A DNA stretch of 64,000 bases, from positions 124,001 to 188,000 of the forward strand of contig JAHDIQ010000006.1 in the NCBI GenBank assembly GCA_020630715.1, read 5' to 3'. The notes below the pieces were generated by a model that was given only the letters and a program-made list of their open reading frames with translations, made no database searches and was not told where the DNA came from. Source of the stretch: Nonlabens sp. (GTDB taxonomy: Bacteria; Bacteroidota; Bacteroidia; Flavobacteriales; Flavobacteriaceae). Positions 6,455 to 63,173 of this stretch are shown here, one piece after another. Positions within the stretch are counted from its first letter, which is position 1; each line of letters opens with the position of its first letter. Position numbers and translations under genes: made by a program.

Positions 6455-6972
6455 TGTTGCGATCAGAAACATGTTTACTACGTGCGGTAGATCCAGAAGA
6501 TCTAGACTACATCTATGAGTTAGAGAATAATCCTGCATTGTGGGAAGTAGGGAATACCATCACACCGTATTCTAAGTTTACCATAAAAGAATATTTAGAA
6601 AATGCCCATCGCGATATTTATGAAGTAAAGCAATTGCGACTGGCTATTTGTGATTTAGACCGTAATATAAAAGGTGTAGTAGATCTGTTTGATTTTGATC
6701 CTTATCATAAACGCGCTGGAGTGGGAATTGTCATTTCTAGTGATGTAGATCGTCGTAAAGGATATGCAGCGCAAGGTTTACAATTGATGGTAGATTACGC
6801 TTTTAATCATTTACGATTGCATCAACTACATGCTGGTGTTGCGGTAGATAATGAAGCGAGCCGTAAATTGTTTGAGAAATTACGCTTTCGCGAAAGCGGC
6901 ATCAAAAAAGACTGGATTGCTACTCAAGATGCATTTAAAGACGAAGTTATTTACCAATTGATCAATGAATAA
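6451..6972 (+). CDS. GNAT N-acetyltransferase (RimJ/RimL-like)
   Basis: A 173-residue acetyl-CoA-dependent acyltransferase of the Acetyltransf_3 type. The family pattern is visible: an N-terminal LLRAVDPEDLDYIYELEN, a central AGVGIVIS strand, RRKGYAAQGLQLMVDYAF as the acetyl-CoA loop, and NEASRKLFEKLRF near the end. The substrate is unknown. The C-terminal part contains a complete copy of the dispersed palindrome (6883-6898), which encodes RFRES in frame. It overlaps dapF by four bases and mltG by eight. Confidence 0.88.
   Translation: MMLRSETCLLRAVDPEDLDYIYELENNPALWEVGNTITPYSKFTIKEYLENAHRDIYEVKQLRLAICDLDRNIKGVVDLFDFDPYHKRAGVGIVISSDVDRRKGYAAQGLQLMVDYAFNHLRLHQLHAGVAVDNEASRKLFEKLRFRESGIKKDWIATQDAFKDEVIYQLINE
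6883..6898. repeat. Dispersed palindrome inside a CDS
   Basis: Exact copy of CGCTTTCGCGAAAGCG, read in the acetyltransferase frame as R-F-R-E-S. Confidence 0.95.
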
Positions 6973-9014: not shown

Positions 9015-9779
9015 ATGAGAAAAACCATATCACTTATTCTTGTTGTTATGGCTGTTATGGCCTGTAAAGAATCTCCTATTGATACGATTACAAAGCCTGC
9101 TACACTTACCGCAGATGATATCATATCAAAAGCTATTGAAGTACATGGAAGTGATGATCTAGAGAATTCTACCATGACATTCAACTTTAGATCTGCAGAT
9201 TTTATGGTGAATCGCAAGAATGGCGCGTTTTTGTATGGTAGATTGACTACAAAAGATGGTGATACCATTACAGATCATTATTCTAATGATAAAACAGTGC
9301 GTTATCTTAACGGTATTCCTCAACAAGTACCAGACAGTATTCTAACTAATATAACTAGCGGTGTGAATAGTGTCGTGTATTTTGCCCAGTTACCTTACAG
9401 TTTGAGTGGTGATGCTGTGAATAGAAAAATCAAAGGAACAGATACGATTAATGGAACTTCATATTATGAAATAGAAGTCACCTTTGATGAAAATGGTGGT
9501 GGCGAGGATCACGAGGATGTTTTTGTGTACTGGATACACCAGCAAGATTTCACTATAGACTATCTAGCTTATAGTTACTGTGAAGAAGAATGTGGATACC
9601 GCTTTCGCGAAAGCGTGAACCGCAGAAACATCAACGGTATCATCGTTCAAGATTATAATAATTATCAGGCAAAGGTTCAGGATCCAGATCTAACCGAATT
9701 AGATGATTTGTTTCAATCTGATGGTCTTGAATTAGTAAGCGAGATTAAAACTGAAAATGCAAATATTAGCCTGAGGTAG
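9015..9779 (+). CDS. DUF6503-like lipoprotein
   Basis: A 254-residue protein beginning MRKTISLILVVMAVMACKES. Cys17 sits in a lipobox, so it is lipid-anchored in the envelope. The body matches the flavobacterial group annotated DUF6503 (ADDIISKAIEVHG, then a beta-rich domain resembling LolA/LppX-type folds). Its function is not known. A complete copy of the dispersed palindrome at 9600-9615 encodes RFRES in frame. It converges on the following gene with a one-base gap and no terminator between. Confidence 0.75.
   Translation: MRKTISLILVVMAVMACKESPIDTITKPATLTADDIISKAIEVHGSDDLENSTMTFNFRSADFMVNRKNGAFLYGRLTTKDGDTITDHYSNDKTVRYLNGIPQQVPDSILTNITSGVNSVVYFAQLPYSLSGDAVNRKIKGTDTINGTSYYEIEVTFDENGGGEDHEDVFVYWIHQQDFTIDYLAYSYCEEECGYRFRESVNRRNINGIIVQDYNNYQAKVQDPDLTELDDLFQSDGLELVSEIKTENANISLR
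9600..9615. repeat. Dispersed palindrome inside a CDS
   Basis: Exact copy of CGCTTTCGCGAAAGCG, read as R-F-R-E-S in the lipoprotein frame. Confidence 0.95.
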
Positions 9780-24469: not shown

Positions 24470-24485
24470 CGCTTTCGCGAAAGCG
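24470..24485. repeat. Dispersed palindrome, intergenic
   Basis: Exact CGCTTTCGCGAAAGCG, between the HAD gene and the CCG-domain gene. Confidence 0.95.
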
Positions 24486-33252: not shown

Positions 33253-33268
33253 CGCTTTCGCGAAAGCG
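33253..33268. repeat. Dispersed palindrome, intergenic
   Basis: Exact CGCTTTCGCGAAAGCG between the 5' end of spoT and the 3' end of the helicase gene. Confidence 0.95.
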
Positions 33269-33336: not shown

Positions 33337-36117
33337 CTATTTCCATTCATTGATGCGTTCTGTTTGTTCTGATAATGAAGCTGCAAGAGATTGAATACGC
33401 GCTTTTAAAAGTAGTTTTCTACCTTTTATATTGCGTGTAAAAATGAGGTCACAATCGCCTACAAGCTCTAGCCATTTTTCTTTATAAAAAACTACATGTT
33501 CTTTGCGTTTTCCTATGAGGTCAGGAACGCTGTGGTAATCACGTTGAGAAAAAAGGTTTAGCAGTTTACTTTTACGTACAATAATGTATTTAGGATTATC
33601 CACTAAATCTATGCATTCTTGAAGTGACTTTACAAAAACAGATTTTTCATAGTTTGTACCACCATCCATTCTACAAAAAATAGAGCCGTCACTTTCTATT
33701 GATGATATGATAAATAAGTTACTTTTATGTGTTTTTATAGCTCCTGTTTTGATTAAGCCATTAACGATGACATGAGCGATTTTTTCAACATCTTTTGAAA
33801 TATCTCTAAACTTAATATAGATTCTGAAATTGCGCCACGCTAGAGCACCAAAAGCTATTGCTGCTGTAACTAATGTATATCCTATAAAGACGACCACTTC
33901 TTTAACCGTTCTTATGGTAACTAGAGATTTGAGCAACTGGAGGATAGATTCCAGACCAAAACTCATAACAGCAGCTATAGTCATAGAACCTAAATATTTT
34001 AAGGTACGCTGGTAATACAATGATTTTACACTAGTGTAATTTTGGTCAGATTTGTATGGTATTTTTATTTCTTCTACGAGGCGAATGCCTTTCTTTATGG
34101 CTTCATTCCATCGTTCTAGTAATTCTTTCCTTCTAGAAGCTATTTCAATGGACCTTTCATTATAAGAGGTAATGATTTCTTTATGCGGCTGTTCACTGGA
34201 AAAATTAGGTACTCCTATGCGTTGGATTCCATTTGTAATTTTAGGCTCGCCGGTATTACAAATTCCTACATAGGTTTTAAATCGTCGCTGTAATAAATGA
34301 ATATCGCTACCACCATTTGTAACGCTAGGATCTACACAGGCTAGATGCCAGATGTTACTGGTTTTGTCTAGCTTATCGGGTTGAACACGAATAGCTCTAC
34401 CGCGCATTTGATTAGAAGATACAAATGATCCTACAAAACTTGCTAAAATCAACGAGTTAATCGCTGGTGCATCCCATCCTTCTCCTAATAGAGATTTTGT
34501 ACCTATAATTATTTCAACCACGCCTTCCTGAAACAGTTGGGTAACTAATTCTACAAGATGAGAACGATTACTGTCCTGCGGTTTTAATAAGGCAAAGTCA
34601 TCATCATAGGTGAGAAGTTGTCTAGAAACAGGAGCGATACTATTTAAGGTAACTAATTCATCTAAACGTTTTAAACTGCTTACAGGTAAAATTATAATAG
34701 ATCCAGTGAGGACTGCTTTTTTAGAACTGCGATCATGTGATCTACGCAACGATTCAAAAATAGAGATTACACCTATTTTATCTAGCGCAAGTGTGTTTTC
34801 TGGCTGTGAGATTAGATATTCTTTACGTATATAATCTGTTAGAATCACCATACGTAAATTAGAACCTAACTCTTTATATTCTGAGGTGACAATCTGGTGA
34901 ATACTCTCTAGCTTTGAAATGCTAGAAGTTAATCGCTGATTGATTTTCCTATTATAAATTAGATTTATCGATCGATGTTCTACGGCGCCTATACGCTTCA
35001 ATCGCTTGATGAATTCTTCTTTATGATATTTAAAGTAAGCTAAATACAGATCTTTTCTATCAAATAGATAATAGGTGAGTAGGATTTCTAACCATTCTAG
35101 AGTTAATGCAGGGATTTTAAAATTTACGTCACCTATGATATCAAGATGTTTATTGTCAATAGTTATTTCACAAGCATGAGCATAGATTAACATCGCACTA
35201 TAGACTTTTAAGTTTTCATAAATCCAGTCTATGTGATGCTCTGGATGCTTAAAAATATAATGAGAGCTTATGGCAAGTTGTAGCTCATCTTCTTTAACAA
35301 CGTCTTTTAAAAGACTCGTAACACGATCTCTAAATTTATAAATGCTCTCTCGTTCTTTGAGTGTAGGCATCGATAAGAAAACATGATCTTGATGAGGACA
35401 CAAGTTCTTTTCTTTGATCAGTTCAGGAACGCTGATTTCTGTATCCACAGGACCGTTTAAACTTAGGTATCGATTCCATTCTGCATAAGTGACATCGTAT
35501 GGTGGTGTCGCTGTAAGACCTACAATTTGTGGTTTAATATGTTCTTTAAGCTCATTTAAAACCGTCCACCAGGCATTTTTAAGATGATGCGCTTCATCTA
35601 CTACTATGGTTTTAAATCCATAATTAAGTAGTTGTTGCCATGATTTAAGCTCTTGTGGTTTATCACGAGCATCTGCTTGTACTTTTAAAGAATAAAGGCT
35701 TTGGTAAGTGACCACCGTAAGAAATTGAGGATCTTTTAAACTTGTAGAAATCCAGTCTGGCGTGATTAATTCATCTAGAAACAACTCGCAAAATCGATTG
35801 ATCCATTGATTTATTATTGCAATCGTAGGTGCAAAAATTAAGGTAGGCTGGTTAAGACGCAACGCTACCTCTAATCCTAGTACTGTTTTCCCAGATCCTG
35901 GAGGCGCGATGACGTGCAAATGCTCATCAGTCAAGTGCATTTCTAACTCATCGAGAACACGTTGCTGGTACTTACGCCACGAGAATTTAAATCTGGTTTT
36001 TTCAGGAAACTGCTTCAATGAATCTATTTTATTCCAGCAATAAAGATAGTAGAAACTGCTGTTGTAATGATTAGATGATTGTTGTAAGAATTTCGCTTTC
36101 GCGAAAGCGTGATCCAC
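33337..36117 (-). CDS. SF2 DEAD/DEAH helicase with two membrane segments
   Basis: 926 residues from a GTG. Walker A APPGSGKT at 71-78, DEAH at 174-177 (VVDEAHHLK), TATPPY as motif III, and QMRGRAIR (about 590) as motif VI show a complete ResIII-type helicase. Unusually, two strongly hydrophobic stretches follow at about 712-733 and 740-761, then ~165 soluble residues. This predicts a membrane-tethered helicase. No methylase or nuclease gene adjoins. The start is doubtful: the GTG abuts a palindrome copy that would encode residues 4-8 (AFAKA), and the true start may be inside, for example the TTG of SLKQ. Confidence 0.85.
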   Translation of the reverse strand: MDHAFAKAKFLQQSSNHYNSSFYYLYCWNKIDSLKQFPEKTRFKFSWRKYQQRVLDELEMHLTDEHLHVIAPPGSGKTVLGLEVALRLNQPTLIFAPTIAIINQWINRFCELFLDELITPDWISTSLKDPQFLTVVTYQSLYSLKVQADARDKPQELKSWQQLLNYGFKTIVVDEAHHLKNAWWTVLNELKEHIKPQIVGLTATPPYDVTYAEWNRYLSLNGPVDTEISVPELIKEKNLCPHQDHVFLSMPTLKERESIYKFRDRVTSLLKDVVKEDELQLAISSHYIFKHPEHHIDWIYENLKVYSAMLIYAHACEITIDNKHLDIIGDVNFKIPALTLEWLEILLTYYLFDRKDLYLAYFKYHKEEFIKRLKRIGAVEHRSINLIYNRKINQRLTSSISKLESIHQIVTSEYKELGSNLRMVILTDYIRKEYLISQPENTLALDKIGVISIFESLRRSHDRSSKKAVLTGSIIILPVSSLKRLDELVTLNSIAPVSRQLLTYDDDFALLKPQDSNRSHLVELVTQLFQEGVVEIIIGTKSLLGEGWDAPAINSLILASFVGSFVSSNQMRGRAIRVQPDKLDKTSNIWHLACVDPSVTNGGSDIHLLQRRFKTYVGICNTGEPKITNGIQRIGVPNFSSEQPHKEIITSYNERSIEIASRRKELLERWNEAIKKGIRLVEEIKIPYKSDQNYTSVKSLYYQRTLKYLGSMTIAAVMSFGLESILQLLKSLVTIRTVKEVVVFIGYTLVTAAIAFGALAWRNFRIYIKFRDISKDVEKIAHVIVNGLIKTGAIKTHKSNLFIISSIESDGSIFCRMDGGTNYEKSVFVKSLQECIDLVDNPKYIIVRKSKLLNLFSQRDYHSVPDLIGKRKEHVVFYKEKWLELVGDCDLIFTRNIKGRKLLLKARIQSLAASLSEQTERINEWK
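36094..36109. repeat. Dispersed palindrome at the helicase gene start
   Basis: Exact CGCTTTCGCGAAAGCG overlapping the predicted first codons of the helicase gene. Confidence 0.95.
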
Positions 36118-43057: not shown

Positions 43058-43061
43058 CAAC

Positions 43062-43382
43062 AGCAGGTCGCCTTATCGCACCGTTTTTTACGGTGAGGAA
43101 AGTCCGGACACCATAGGATAACATAACGGTTAACGGCCGTCGTTTTGTTTTCGCTTTCGCGAAAGCGAAATAGGACTAGTGCAACAGAAAGTATGTACAG
43201 GTAATGCTGTAGTGAAACCAGGTAAACTCTATGTGGTGAAATGTCGCGTAAATCAACGCTTGAGCGCGATCCGTGCGATGTTGAAGGGTAGGCAGATTGA
43301 GGTTGTGAGTAATTACAATCCTAGATAAATGATAAGGAATCCCTTTATTGGGATGACAGAATCCGGCTTATAGACCTGCTTT
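43062..43382 (+). ncRNA. rnpB: RNase P RNA, with a palindrome copy inside
   Basis: Class A ribozyme that trims tRNA 5' ends. Conserved region I GAGGAAAGTCCGGACACCAT at about 43094, AGTGCAACAGA at about 43177, GGTAAACTC at about 43221, and the 3' region ATGACAGAATCCGGCTTATAG. The ends pair (GCAGGTC near 43063 with GACCTGC near 43373) as P1. A hairpin ACGG/CCGT follows CRI. The next hairpin, at the place of E. coli P9, is formed by a full copy of the dispersed palindrome. Ends are +/- 5 bases. Confidence 0.95.
43152..43167. repeat. Dispersed palindrome inside rnpB
   Basis: Exact CGCTTTCGCGAAAGCG, extended to TTTTCGCTTT/CGCG/AAAGCGAAAT as a hairpin between the P8-like stem and AGTGCAACAGA. Confidence 0.95.
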
Positions 43383-43430
43383 TTTAAATTAAAGTTAATT
43401 GTTTTCTTATTTTGGCTACATTCTGTTTCT

Positions 43431-50733: not shown

Positions 50734-50749
50734 CGCTTTCGCGAAAGCG
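50734..50749. repeat. Dispersed palindrome, intergenic, long-arm copy
   Basis: Exact CGCTTTCGCGAAAGCG within ATTACGC...GCGTAAT, so arms reach 12 bases. It lies just after DUF4126 and could form an RNA hairpin, but no T-run follows. Confidence 0.95.
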
Positions 50750-60679: not shown

Positions 60680-63173
60680 GCGTTCCTAAACTTATCATAT
60701 TTGCCAGTAAACGGTACGCACCGCTTACACCAGCTGGTAGTTCTCTAAATAGCGATAATCCTGTGTAAACCACGTGACCTTTGCCGTAATTTGCCACGAT
60801 TAAACTTCCTTTGGTCATTTCCTCGCCTTTGTCATTCATGCCTAGTAATGGTGTGAATGCGCTATCCCATTCAGTAGGGAAATACAGTCCACGTTCTTGA
60901 ACCCAATTCTCAAAATCGGCATCTGTGATCTGGTTAGGTGTGCTCAATAGTGGATGCTTAGGATTAAGGATGGTAACGGTAGCGTTTTCATCGGTAACTC
61001 GCTTTCGCGAAAGCGTAATAGACAACGGCCCTAATGCATCTGGACTAATCCTGCGACTGGTGTTGTATTGCATGATGAGTGTACCACCATTTTTTACGTA
61101 CTCATCTAGCGATTGCTGCAGTGCGGCCATTTCAGTAGGAGCGACGTTAAAGGCTCTAATTCCTACCATTACGGCATCATATTTAGATAGATCTGCAGGA
61201 ACTTCATCTGGATTAAAACGGAAAACTTTACTTCCTATCGCTTCTATTGCGGTAGCGACATCATCACCAGCACCATTGATATATGCAACGGTTTGTGCGG
61301 TGTTTTGCAATCCAGGTTGTACCACTTGGGCTTCATTATTACGCAACAGTTGTTGATCTGGGATATGATCGTAATCTATTGAGATCACTTCTTTTGTATA
61401 GGATTGATCACCTATTTTAACCAGTCCAGAAACTAGACCACGTGATGCGCCTTTAGGTGGTATTACGGTAAAGTTATAGGTGATGACTTCGCCTTTTTTC
61501 ATAGCAGGAAGCGTGGTTTTATTAGGCGTGATGTTCCAGTCATTAGGTCCACATAATTCTACTGTTCCAGCATTTGTGTCTTGATGCGCTTTTACCGTAA
61601 TAGGTATTTGTTGCGCTTCACTATTTTTAAATATATATACCGGATTTTGAATACTTACTGCAATTGCTGGTACGATATTTAGTGGCTCGTGAATCTCACC
61701 ACGCACAGGATCTGTAGTTTTAAAATGAACCTTAAAAGGCTTTTTGATTTTTAAGCCGTCTATGTCAATAATCGCATATCCACCAAATTCCAATGGAAGT
61801 TCAGGATTTCCTATCTGGTGTGTATTAGGGACCGCATACATTCCTAAGGTTCCTTGTTGCACCAAATAATATGGAGTAGTAGAAGCAACATCACTAGGAA
61901 TACGCAGTTGCGCCGAAACACGATTAGAGGCTTTTGAATCTACTGTGATCTTTGGGTTTTCTATAGTTAGAGAAGCGTCTCCTATAAATTCCACATCCAT
62001 ATTTAGACACGATCTGTTTGTGAATTCAATAGCGACCGCTAATTCTTCACCAGCCGTTGCTAGCTTTGAGTTTGTGGTAGCAGATAGGTAAATACCATGG
62101 ATATCTAGAATGATCTGTTCTAGTTCCTTAAGTTTTATAGGTTTCCAGTGATCATCTTCTAGCTCACTGATCATTTCATGCAACTGTATTAATCGCGTTA
62201 AACTGGCTTCTGGATCATAAAAATCATAGCCTGCGATAACTTTGGTTAATTGATCTTGAATCTTATCGCCACCTTTAACGCGTGACCATGTGGTATTGAT
62301 TCCAGAGAATAAATCTTCTTTATCTTCTGGAAAAGATCCTTTTAGGTATTCTAAATATTCTGTTTGTGAATCACGAGCACCACTACTACCAAAACCTTGC
62401 GATTTATGCTCACTACGGCTTAAAGCGGCAATCTCTCCATTAGATTTACCTATCCACGGATAATACTCACCGCTGGTTAATTCTAGAAGATTTGTTTTAT
62501 CCGCTTTCGCGAAAGCGTCACGACTACCATAAAACCACCAGCTGGTATTAAAAAATAACCGATCTGTTTTCCATGGTTCTAGATTCAGGCCTGGAACTTT
62601 ATAATTAGAAGCCGCTTTATCAAATGCTTCCATACTAATCATTGCACTTCCTGTGTGATGACCATGAGTGGTTCCTGGTGTACGATGATTGAATCTATTG
62701 ATAATGACATCTGGTTTAAATTCACGTATCACTTTAATAACGTCATCCAGCACTTGTTCTTTATCCCAAATGTCAAAAGTCTCATCGGGATGTTTTGAAT
62801 ACCCAAAATCATTAGCTCGCGTAAAAAACTGCTCACCACCATCAATGTTTCTGGCTTCTAACAATTCCTGTGTACGTATCATTCCTAATTGCTCTCGTAA
62901 TTGCGGACCTATTAAATTCTGTCCGCCATCACCACGTGTGAGCGATAGGTACGCAGTACGAGCCATACGATGATTAGATAAATAAGAGATCAATCTCGTA
63001 TTTTCATCATCTGGATGTGCTGCAACGTATAATGCAGTTCCTAGAAAACCTAGTCGTTCTATGTTGTGATAGATCTCTGAGGTGTTAGGTTGCTGTGGAA
63101 ACAACCTGTTTTCTTGTGCTTGTGAACTATATGCCAGTATAAAACCGCATAAAAAAAGGATTGTCTTTTTCAT
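60639..63173 (-). CDS. PIG-L (LmbE-type) deacetylase, large secreted form
   Basis: 844 residues. Signal peptide about 1-19. The zinc motif AAHPDDENTR is at 51-60 (His53, Asp56) with a later His in THGHHTG. After the ~270-residue PIG-L domain come beta-rich segments and a GATase-like C-terminal domain (about 640-800: KYDAVMVGIRAFN...). The protein probably removes acetyl groups from N-acetylated sugars in the periplasm. Two palindrome copies lie inside. Overlaps the tiny membrane protein gene. Confidence 0.87.
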   Translation of the reverse strand: MKKTILFLCGFILAYSSQAQENRLFPQQPNTSEIYHNIERLGFLGTALYVAAHPDDENTRLISYLSNHRMARTAYLSLTRGDGGQNLIGPQLREQLGMIRTQELLEARNIDGGEQFFTRANDFGYSKHPDETFDIWDKEQVLDDVIKVIREFKPDVIINRFNHRTPGTTHGHHTGSAMISMEAFDKAASNYKVPGLNLEPWKTDRLFFNTSWWFYGSRDAFAKADKTNLLELTSGEYYPWIGKSNGEIAALSRSEHKSQGFGSSGARDSQTEYLEYLKGSFPEDKEDLFSGINTTWSRVKGGDKIQDQLTKVIAGYDFYDPEASLTRLIQLHEMISELEDDHWKPIKLKELEQIILDIHGIYLSATTNSKLATAGEELAVAIEFTNRSCLNMDVEFIGDASLTIENPKITVDSKASNRVSAQLRIPSDVASTTPYYLVQQGTLGMYAVPNTHQIGNPELPLEFGGYAIIDIDGLKIKKPFKVHFKTTDPVRGEIHEPLNIVPAIAVSIQNPVYIFKNSEAQQIPITVKAHQDTNAGTVELCGPNDWNITPNKTTLPAMKKGEVITYNFTVIPPKGASRGLVSGLVKIGDQSYTKEVISIDYDHIPDQQLLRNNEAQVVQPGLQNTAQTVAYINGAGDDVATAIEAIGSKVFRFNPDEVPADLSKYDAVMVGIRAFNVAPTEMAALQQSLDEYVKNGGTLIMQYNTSRRISPDALGPLSITLSRKRVTDENATVTILNPKHPLLSTPNQITDADFENWVQERGLYFPTEWDSAFTPLLGMNDKGEEMTKGSLIVANYGKGHVVYTGLSLFRELPAGVSGAYRLLANMISLGTHGTKINTTELQRF
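61000..61015. repeat. Dispersed palindrome inside a CDS
   Basis: Exact CGCTTTCGCGAAAGCG, read in the third possible frame as L-S-R-K-R in the PIG-L protein. Confidence 0.95.
62502..62517. repeat. Dispersed palindrome inside a CDS
   Basis: Exact CGCTTTCGCGAAAGCG, read as A-F-A-K-A in the PIG-L protein; the same gene holds another copy in a different frame. Confidence 0.95.

Follow-up and report, generated by a model that had tools for sequence, protein, structure and literature searches.

The RNase P RNA gene and its P9 arm

The DNA analysed here, a 64,000-nt stretch of the Nonlabens sp. genome (the window), carries a gene for bacterial class A RNase P RNA (rnpB; Table 1). It matches the RF00010 covariance model over the full length of the model (positions 1–367 of 367) with 185.1 bits, above the gathering score of 100, which places it in class A, and it is the single RF00010 match across this genome (G000). 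In the covariance model alignment, the nucleotides in excess of RF00010 sit at the P9 slot and contain an exact copy of the 16-bp perfect palindrome CGCTTTCGCGAAAGCG (the word), which is itself enclosed in a 22-nt perfect palindrome. An earlier note, made from the letters of the window, had placed a palindrome copy in P9 of an essential ribozyme, and both the place and the host are confirmed by the model alignment. Eight more exact copies are present elsewhere in the window.

Table 1. Features of the RNase P RNA locus and exact copies of the 16-mer in the window
Feature	Position	Strand	Basis or context
rnpB, bacterial class A	43060..43386	+	RF00010 covariance model
P1, 5′ strand (usual L9 docking partner)	43060..43069	+	P1 pairing, 10 bp; docking according to PMC6783828
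P1, 3′ strand	43373..43382	+	P1 pairing, 10 bp
P9 hairpin, register c (predicted)	43142..43171	+	5′ strand 43142–43154, loop UUUC 43155–43158, 3′ strand 43159–43171
22-nt perfect palindrome enclosing the 16-mer	43149..43170		sequence
Copy of CGCTTTCGCGAAAGCG in P9	43152..43167		exact match
L18 loop GUAA (GNRA), retained	43309..43312	+	sequence
Exact 16-mer copy	6883..6898		in ORF
Exact 16-mer copy	9600..9615		in ORF
Exact 16-mer copy	24470..24485		outside ORFs ≥300 nt
Exact 16-mer copy	33253..33268		outside ORFs ≥300 nt
Exact 16-mer copy	36094..36109		in minus-strand ORF
Exact 16-mer copy	50734..50749		outside ORFs ≥300 nt
Exact 16-mer copy	61000..61015		in ORFs of both strands
Exact 16-mer copy	62502..62517		in minus-strand ORF

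Predicted folds of the palindrome in P9

Three registers are predicted for the word in the P9 helices of the genus: a symmetric one with a CGCG loop (register a), one with a GAAA loop (register b), and one with a UUUC loop (register c). The best fold of the window P9 is register c, with 13 pairs (three of them G-U) and an MFE of −15.1 kcal/mol, compared with −13.1 and −8.8 kcal/mol when the CGCG and the GAAA loop, respectively, are forced. The register c helix is also present in both the MFE and the centroid structure of the whole window RNA. Applied to the seven type c P9s of the genus (six distinct), register c pairs 97.4% of the cells, three of which show two-sided changes (G-C to A-U in G016 and G022, C-G to U-A in G016). 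Its covariation score was reached by four of 500 shuffles, and sliding the partners by one to three columns leaves at most 56.4% paired. On the same P9s, the symmetric register gives 83.3% paired with one two-sided cell, no better than shuffles. Two measures for register c do not beat the shuffles either, i.e., the number of pairs with a two-sided change (55 of 500) and the number of further pair types (500 of 500), and the covariation is small since two of the three two-sided cells belong to the sister pair G016/G022, in which the helix also has one U-U mismatch. The helix stands despite decay of the word in G004, G016, and G022; in G004, a changed loop destroys the DNA palindrome and leaves the helix intact.

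Register c is thus a prediction backed by covariation in few sequences. The MFE, the centroid, and the pair counts all favor the UUUC loop, and the hairpin in the window is probably not the CGCG-looped one that the earlier note had drawn. The CGCG-looped register a is predicted for G003, G008, and G019 on the basis of energy in few sequences and of one symmetric deletion, namely in G020, where one T and one A are lost at matching places. Energy, again in few sequences, points to register b in G002, G006, G015, and G018, where the palindrome itself would provide a GNRA loop, GAAA closed by a C-G pair. G013, G017, and G007 have a longer P9 arm with extra sequence, in which the word has other pairing partners. 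It follows from the predicted registers that the window RNA would have no GNRA L9. For the P9 stretch of the window taken as single-stranded DNA, the predicted fold is the symmetric CGCG-loop form. Both strands of the P9 copy contain GCGAAAGC, which we take to be an extraordinarily stable DNA mini-hairpin, and the word may have a role as a single strand.

The L9 loop and P1 in relatives

In bacterial RNase P, L9 usually docks onto P1, and a chimeric two-piece ribozyme whose L9 was replaced by UUCG was less active or inactive, according to PMC6783828; PMC13022451 treats L9-P1 and L18-P8 as contacts between domains. The window RNA has P9 at the same place as in this contact system and keeps the GNRA loop in L18, as do all 22 rnpB loci of the genus (G(T/C)AA in 22 of 22), but differs in its predicted UUUC L9.

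The family survey comprises 163 of 208 genomes outside the genus in which an rnpB match was found (150 listed and 13 picked, some for their palindrome counts), and low-scoring rnpB matches are under-sampled in it. P9 was classified in 192 of 193 loci (L190 was missed). The GNRA-capped P9 that the earlier note proposed to look for in relatives is true of most of those sampled, with 106 of the 163 loci carrying it, eight of the 106 called by a rescue rule (GNRA closed by at least three pairs in a short P9) instead of the MFE loop, and the P9 segment is 19 nt long in 100 of these 106. A GNRA L9 is absent from the other 57. Hence, it is a frequent trait that does not define the class A family, and because its loss is this common the palindrome is not its sole cause. 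When GNRA status is mapped on an rnpB tree from which P9 was left out, the 185 loci (22 from the genus) require a minimum of 32 changes, compared with 49–65 in 20 shuffles. The suggestion that the palindrome replaces a GNRA loop therefore holds in part: it agrees with the UUUC loop predicted here, but GNRA is missing from many relatives as well, and the palindrome is itself predicted to supply the GAAA loop of four sister species. P1 was compared for possible co-evolution with L9: with kinship ignored, mean P1 length is 10.50 bp in 105 GNRA loci vs 9.88 bp in the 57 non-GNRA loci (P = 0.054), and P1 has 3.33 vs 5.00 G-C pairs as raw figures.

None of the 163 family loci outside the genus has CGCTTTCGCGAAAGCG in P9, and the word is likewise absent from P9 in G211 and G227, the two other genera in which it is abundant. 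Thus, an identical hairpin in species that lack the dispersed word, the finding by which the earlier note thought its proposal could fail, does not occur among these loci.

P9 across the genus

The genus provides 22 rnpB genes, as the genome search gave no rnpB match in G012. The 12-mer core of the word is present in 14 of the 22, always in P9, compared with 0.22 genes expected from the local flank density, a comparison in which the 14 are related by descent. The remaining eight genes lack the word, which indicates that P9 works without it: G001 and G009 carry a different perfect palindrome, CCCGATAGCTATCGGG, and G011 a near copy of the latter; G020 has a shortened symmetric form of the word; G004, G016, and G022 have diverged forms; and G021 has an unrelated hairpin. 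In other RNA genes of the genus CGCTTTCGCGAAAGCG was absent, i.e., from 0 of 21 tmRNA genes (of 22 above the cut-off, the partial gene of G012, L281, being left out) and 0 of 22 SRP RNA genes, with 2.67 and 0.80 expected, respectively; given an expectation of 2.67, the tmRNA result is weak by itself. In the distal part of rnpB in G004 (L018), one of the late helices is larger owing to a TCCTGAA...TTCAGGA hairpin.

Could the hairpin have arisen by ordinary RNA evolution, as a stable helix under RNA selection whose match to the dispersed word is coincidental? Retention of the helix in the three species where the word has decayed is in keeping with such an origin, but the excess of genes with the core, though these are kin and not independent, and the keeping of the word in three predicted RNA registers argue against it, and we consider this explanation very improbable.

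P9 is variable within the genus. On a quick tree of seven neighboring proteins, in which some forks are weak, the minimum number of changes is 10 for P9 type over 22 genomes (each of the three long arms being a type of its own), five for the presence of the word in P9 over the same 22, and four for the register over 15 genomes; type c is common to three separate clades. The rnpB genes of G014 and G001/G009 are 0.989 identical upstream of P9 and 0.89 downstream, and their P9s are wholly unlike. In G010 and G011 the two sides of P9 are 0.955 and 0.958 identical and the hairpins are unlike. Replacement of P9 as a block is therefore plausible. Recombination was also considered as the origin of the shared type c, and no clear donor emerged when rnpB was compared on either side of P9, the rnpB flank tree being poorly resolved (two of 19 inner branches well supported).

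These data raise the possibility that different palindromes dispersed across the family have used P9 as a landing place, brought in by short-tract recombination or hairpin copying, the 16-mer being merely the commonest of them in this genus. The similar flanks around unlike P9s and the distribution of type c over three clades are consistent with this possibility, as is the occurrence of CCCGATAGCTATCGGG, which is present not only in P9 of G001 and G009 but also at about P3 of rnpB in G058 (L182), in a helix further along rnpB in G222 (L175), in the 3′ part of rnpB in G178 (L185), and within the tmRNA gene of G017 (L280), a genome with 34 copies of it. However, a perfect palindrome of at least 14 within P9 is found in only two of the 163 family loci (L155 and L169), and CCCGATAGCTATCGGG is rare in G001 and G009 themselves, with two copies each, one of which is the P9 copy. 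As a full account we find the landing place rather unlikely; as the word's route of entry it is compatible with the reading that we prefer, in which P9 is one site of a palindrome iterated throughout the genus.

Copies and distribution of the palindrome

The word is strongly over-represented in the genome, with 448 copies of CGCTTTCGCGAAAGCG compared with none of the reversed control. The window contains nine exact 16-mers and 11 exact 12-mers, and allowing at most one mismatch to the 12-mer gives 14 matches vs a shuffle mean of 0.12. Every one of the 23 same-genus genomes searched has 180–737 copies. Across the family, at least one copy is present in 30 of 219 genomes (218 genera) and high copy number is confined to three of the 218 sampled genera: this genus, G211 (153 copies), and G227 (630 copies), the others having 0–12. 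The core followed within at most 33 nt by the conserved AGTGCAACAGA, which lies 3′ of P9, is found in eight named records, seven from Nonlabens and one from Flavobacteria bacterium BBFL7. In the literature searched, no published mention was found of CGCTTTCGCGAAAGCG, of two extended strings, or of a relevant Nonlabens palindrome, and we make no wider claim of novelty.

Some further occurrences were recorded. In three genera with few copies (G122, G108, and G099; L255, L256, and L257), the copies lie within genes that, judged by eye, resemble metal-efflux genes (RND pump, TolC-like, and P-type ATPase), as though they had been transferred from a donor rich in the palindrome. The exact 16-mer is also present in 41 IMG/VR viral stretches (L214–L254), in several copies in some of them. 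In the window, another 12-mer, AGGCGTTAGGCG, occurs five times, counting both strands, apparently as a short tandem array.

Conservation of the word at the DNA level

Conservation was followed in 20-kb neighborhoods (one of 8.9 kb) from 20 genomes with 80 sites. Outside P9, this gave 464 ordered ortholog pairs from 52 sites; these pairs lack independence, and BLAST hits were required to be joined through the site, which biases the set toward sites with a surviving word and excludes large indels. In these pairs, the 16-mer is exact in 62% vs 2.9% for control 16-mers from the same alignments, at a flank identity of 0.735, and exact retention spans deep splits. For copies in coding sequence, identity at codon position 3 is 0.877 within the word vs 0.489 in the flanks. 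Conservation is slight past about 16–24 bp around the copies. Hence, in the neighborhoods sampled, the word is conserved above its flanks. Its placements are both coding and noncoding: 48 of the 80 sampled sites lie in long ORFs, where all three frames are used and one is dominant (39, 7, and 2), and the window copies occur on either strand, some of them with no long ORF around them. The P9 copy is kept less strictly (40% exact vs 20% for the control; 209 pairs), partly because indels disturb the P9 alignment.

Spacing was analyzed in part of each of two of the 23 genomes. Spacings on contig C1 of G000 are more even than random (CV 0.62, P 0.004), while those among the copies listed for C4 of G001 are not significantly so (CV 0.87, P 0.11). 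Short spacings are depleted in both lists, with 2 vs 6.2 expected (G000 C1) and 3 vs 20.4 expected (G001 C4, among the copies listed). This mutual avoidance at short distance suggests a constraint on spacing.

The earlier note had called the palindrome a mobile-like element. Insertion of a mobile palindrome (of the REP, MITE, or Rickettsia type) into P9, where it would be tolerated, accords with the frequent changes in the type and length of P9 and with the longer arms and extra sequence in G013, G017, and G007. Such an element would leave empty orthologous sites that are shorter by its length. Outside P9, a gap in the word was found in 13 of the 464 pairs, and 451 were ungapped, by a method that does not see large indels. 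Of the strongly diverged pairs, 34 in number, seven had a gap, as mobility would predict, but 27 did not. The short reach of the conservation, the exact retention over deep splits, far above that of the flanks, and the depletion of short spacings likewise speak against mobility. Taken together, the gap pattern, the spacing, and the conservation set mobile insertion back as the main account outside P9. For P9, whose length does vary, it is still a rival, and we judge it improbable.

A proposed double role of P9 as palindrome site and ribozyme helix

The explanation that we favor, to which we assign a probability of about 0.65, is that P9 belongs, as a single site, to a set of 16-bp palindromes iterated across the genus and resembling the HIP elements of cyanobacteria and that the RNA uses the word as a helix. 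The iterated CGCTTTCGCGAAAGCG palindromes would be maintained across the genus for a reason that operates at the level of DNA, and P9 of rnpB would double as one of their sites. The self-complementarity of the word, together with the sequence tolerance of P9 as a peripheral helix, would let the RNA use the word as stock for a helix. The bases that flank the word would pair with one of its halves, and thus P9 would be a 13-pair UUUC-looped helix here instead of the symmetric hairpin, while sister species would fold the same word with the CGCG or the GAAA loop. We infer a selected function for the DNA word, to whose presence the ribozyme would be adapting. The word may have come into P9 by mutation, with a short recombination tract, or by insertion.

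A more tentative extension, for which we would put the odds a little short of even, is that two codes overlap at this site, a letter-perfect chromosomal DNA palindrome and a helix of an essential ribozyme. The ribozyme would keep the word, evolve the flanks, and use G-U pairs, which are available to RNA only. At least three registers would then coexist among sister species, with the GNRA loop of L9 either lost or regenerated.

Relation to known systems and significance

The closest likeness is to HIP1 of cyanobacteria, GCGATCGC, which PMC4390886 describes as an 8-bp palindrome that occurs about once per kb, is over-represented in coding and noncoding DNA, and is apparently maintained, with its function debated and a link to methyltransferases discussed. 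Like HIP1, CGCTTTCGCGAAAGCG is a short perfect palindrome that is over-represented in coding and noncoding DNA and apparently maintained. Unlike HIP1, it is 16 bp instead of 8 bp long, belongs to Flavobacteriaceae, occurs about once per 6.6 kb, and would also serve as an RNA helix. Among RNase P RNAs, those of heterocystous cyanobacteria contain short tandem repeats (STRR). There, too, a genomic repeat occupies a peripheral part of the RNA, and the STRR may by analogy be regarded as a precedent for RNase P RNA as a host of genomic repeats; they are tandem, whereas the window P9 has one palindrome. Rickettsia palindromic elements and REP/MITE units are mobile dispersed palindromic repeats that are also found within genes. 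The word resembles them in being dispersed, palindromic, and present inside genes but differs from these mobile units in that orthologous sites outside P9 mostly show no gap.

If the favored explanation is correct, Bacteroidota would have an equivalent of the unexplained HIP1 palindromes, conserved strongly enough for study. It would also provide a natural experiment in which a near-invariant word has been refolded in several ways by a ribozyme. Together, these two aspects would turn the finding into two testable questions, i.e., what keeps iterated palindromes in place and to what extent RNase P tolerates loss of the L9-P1 contact.
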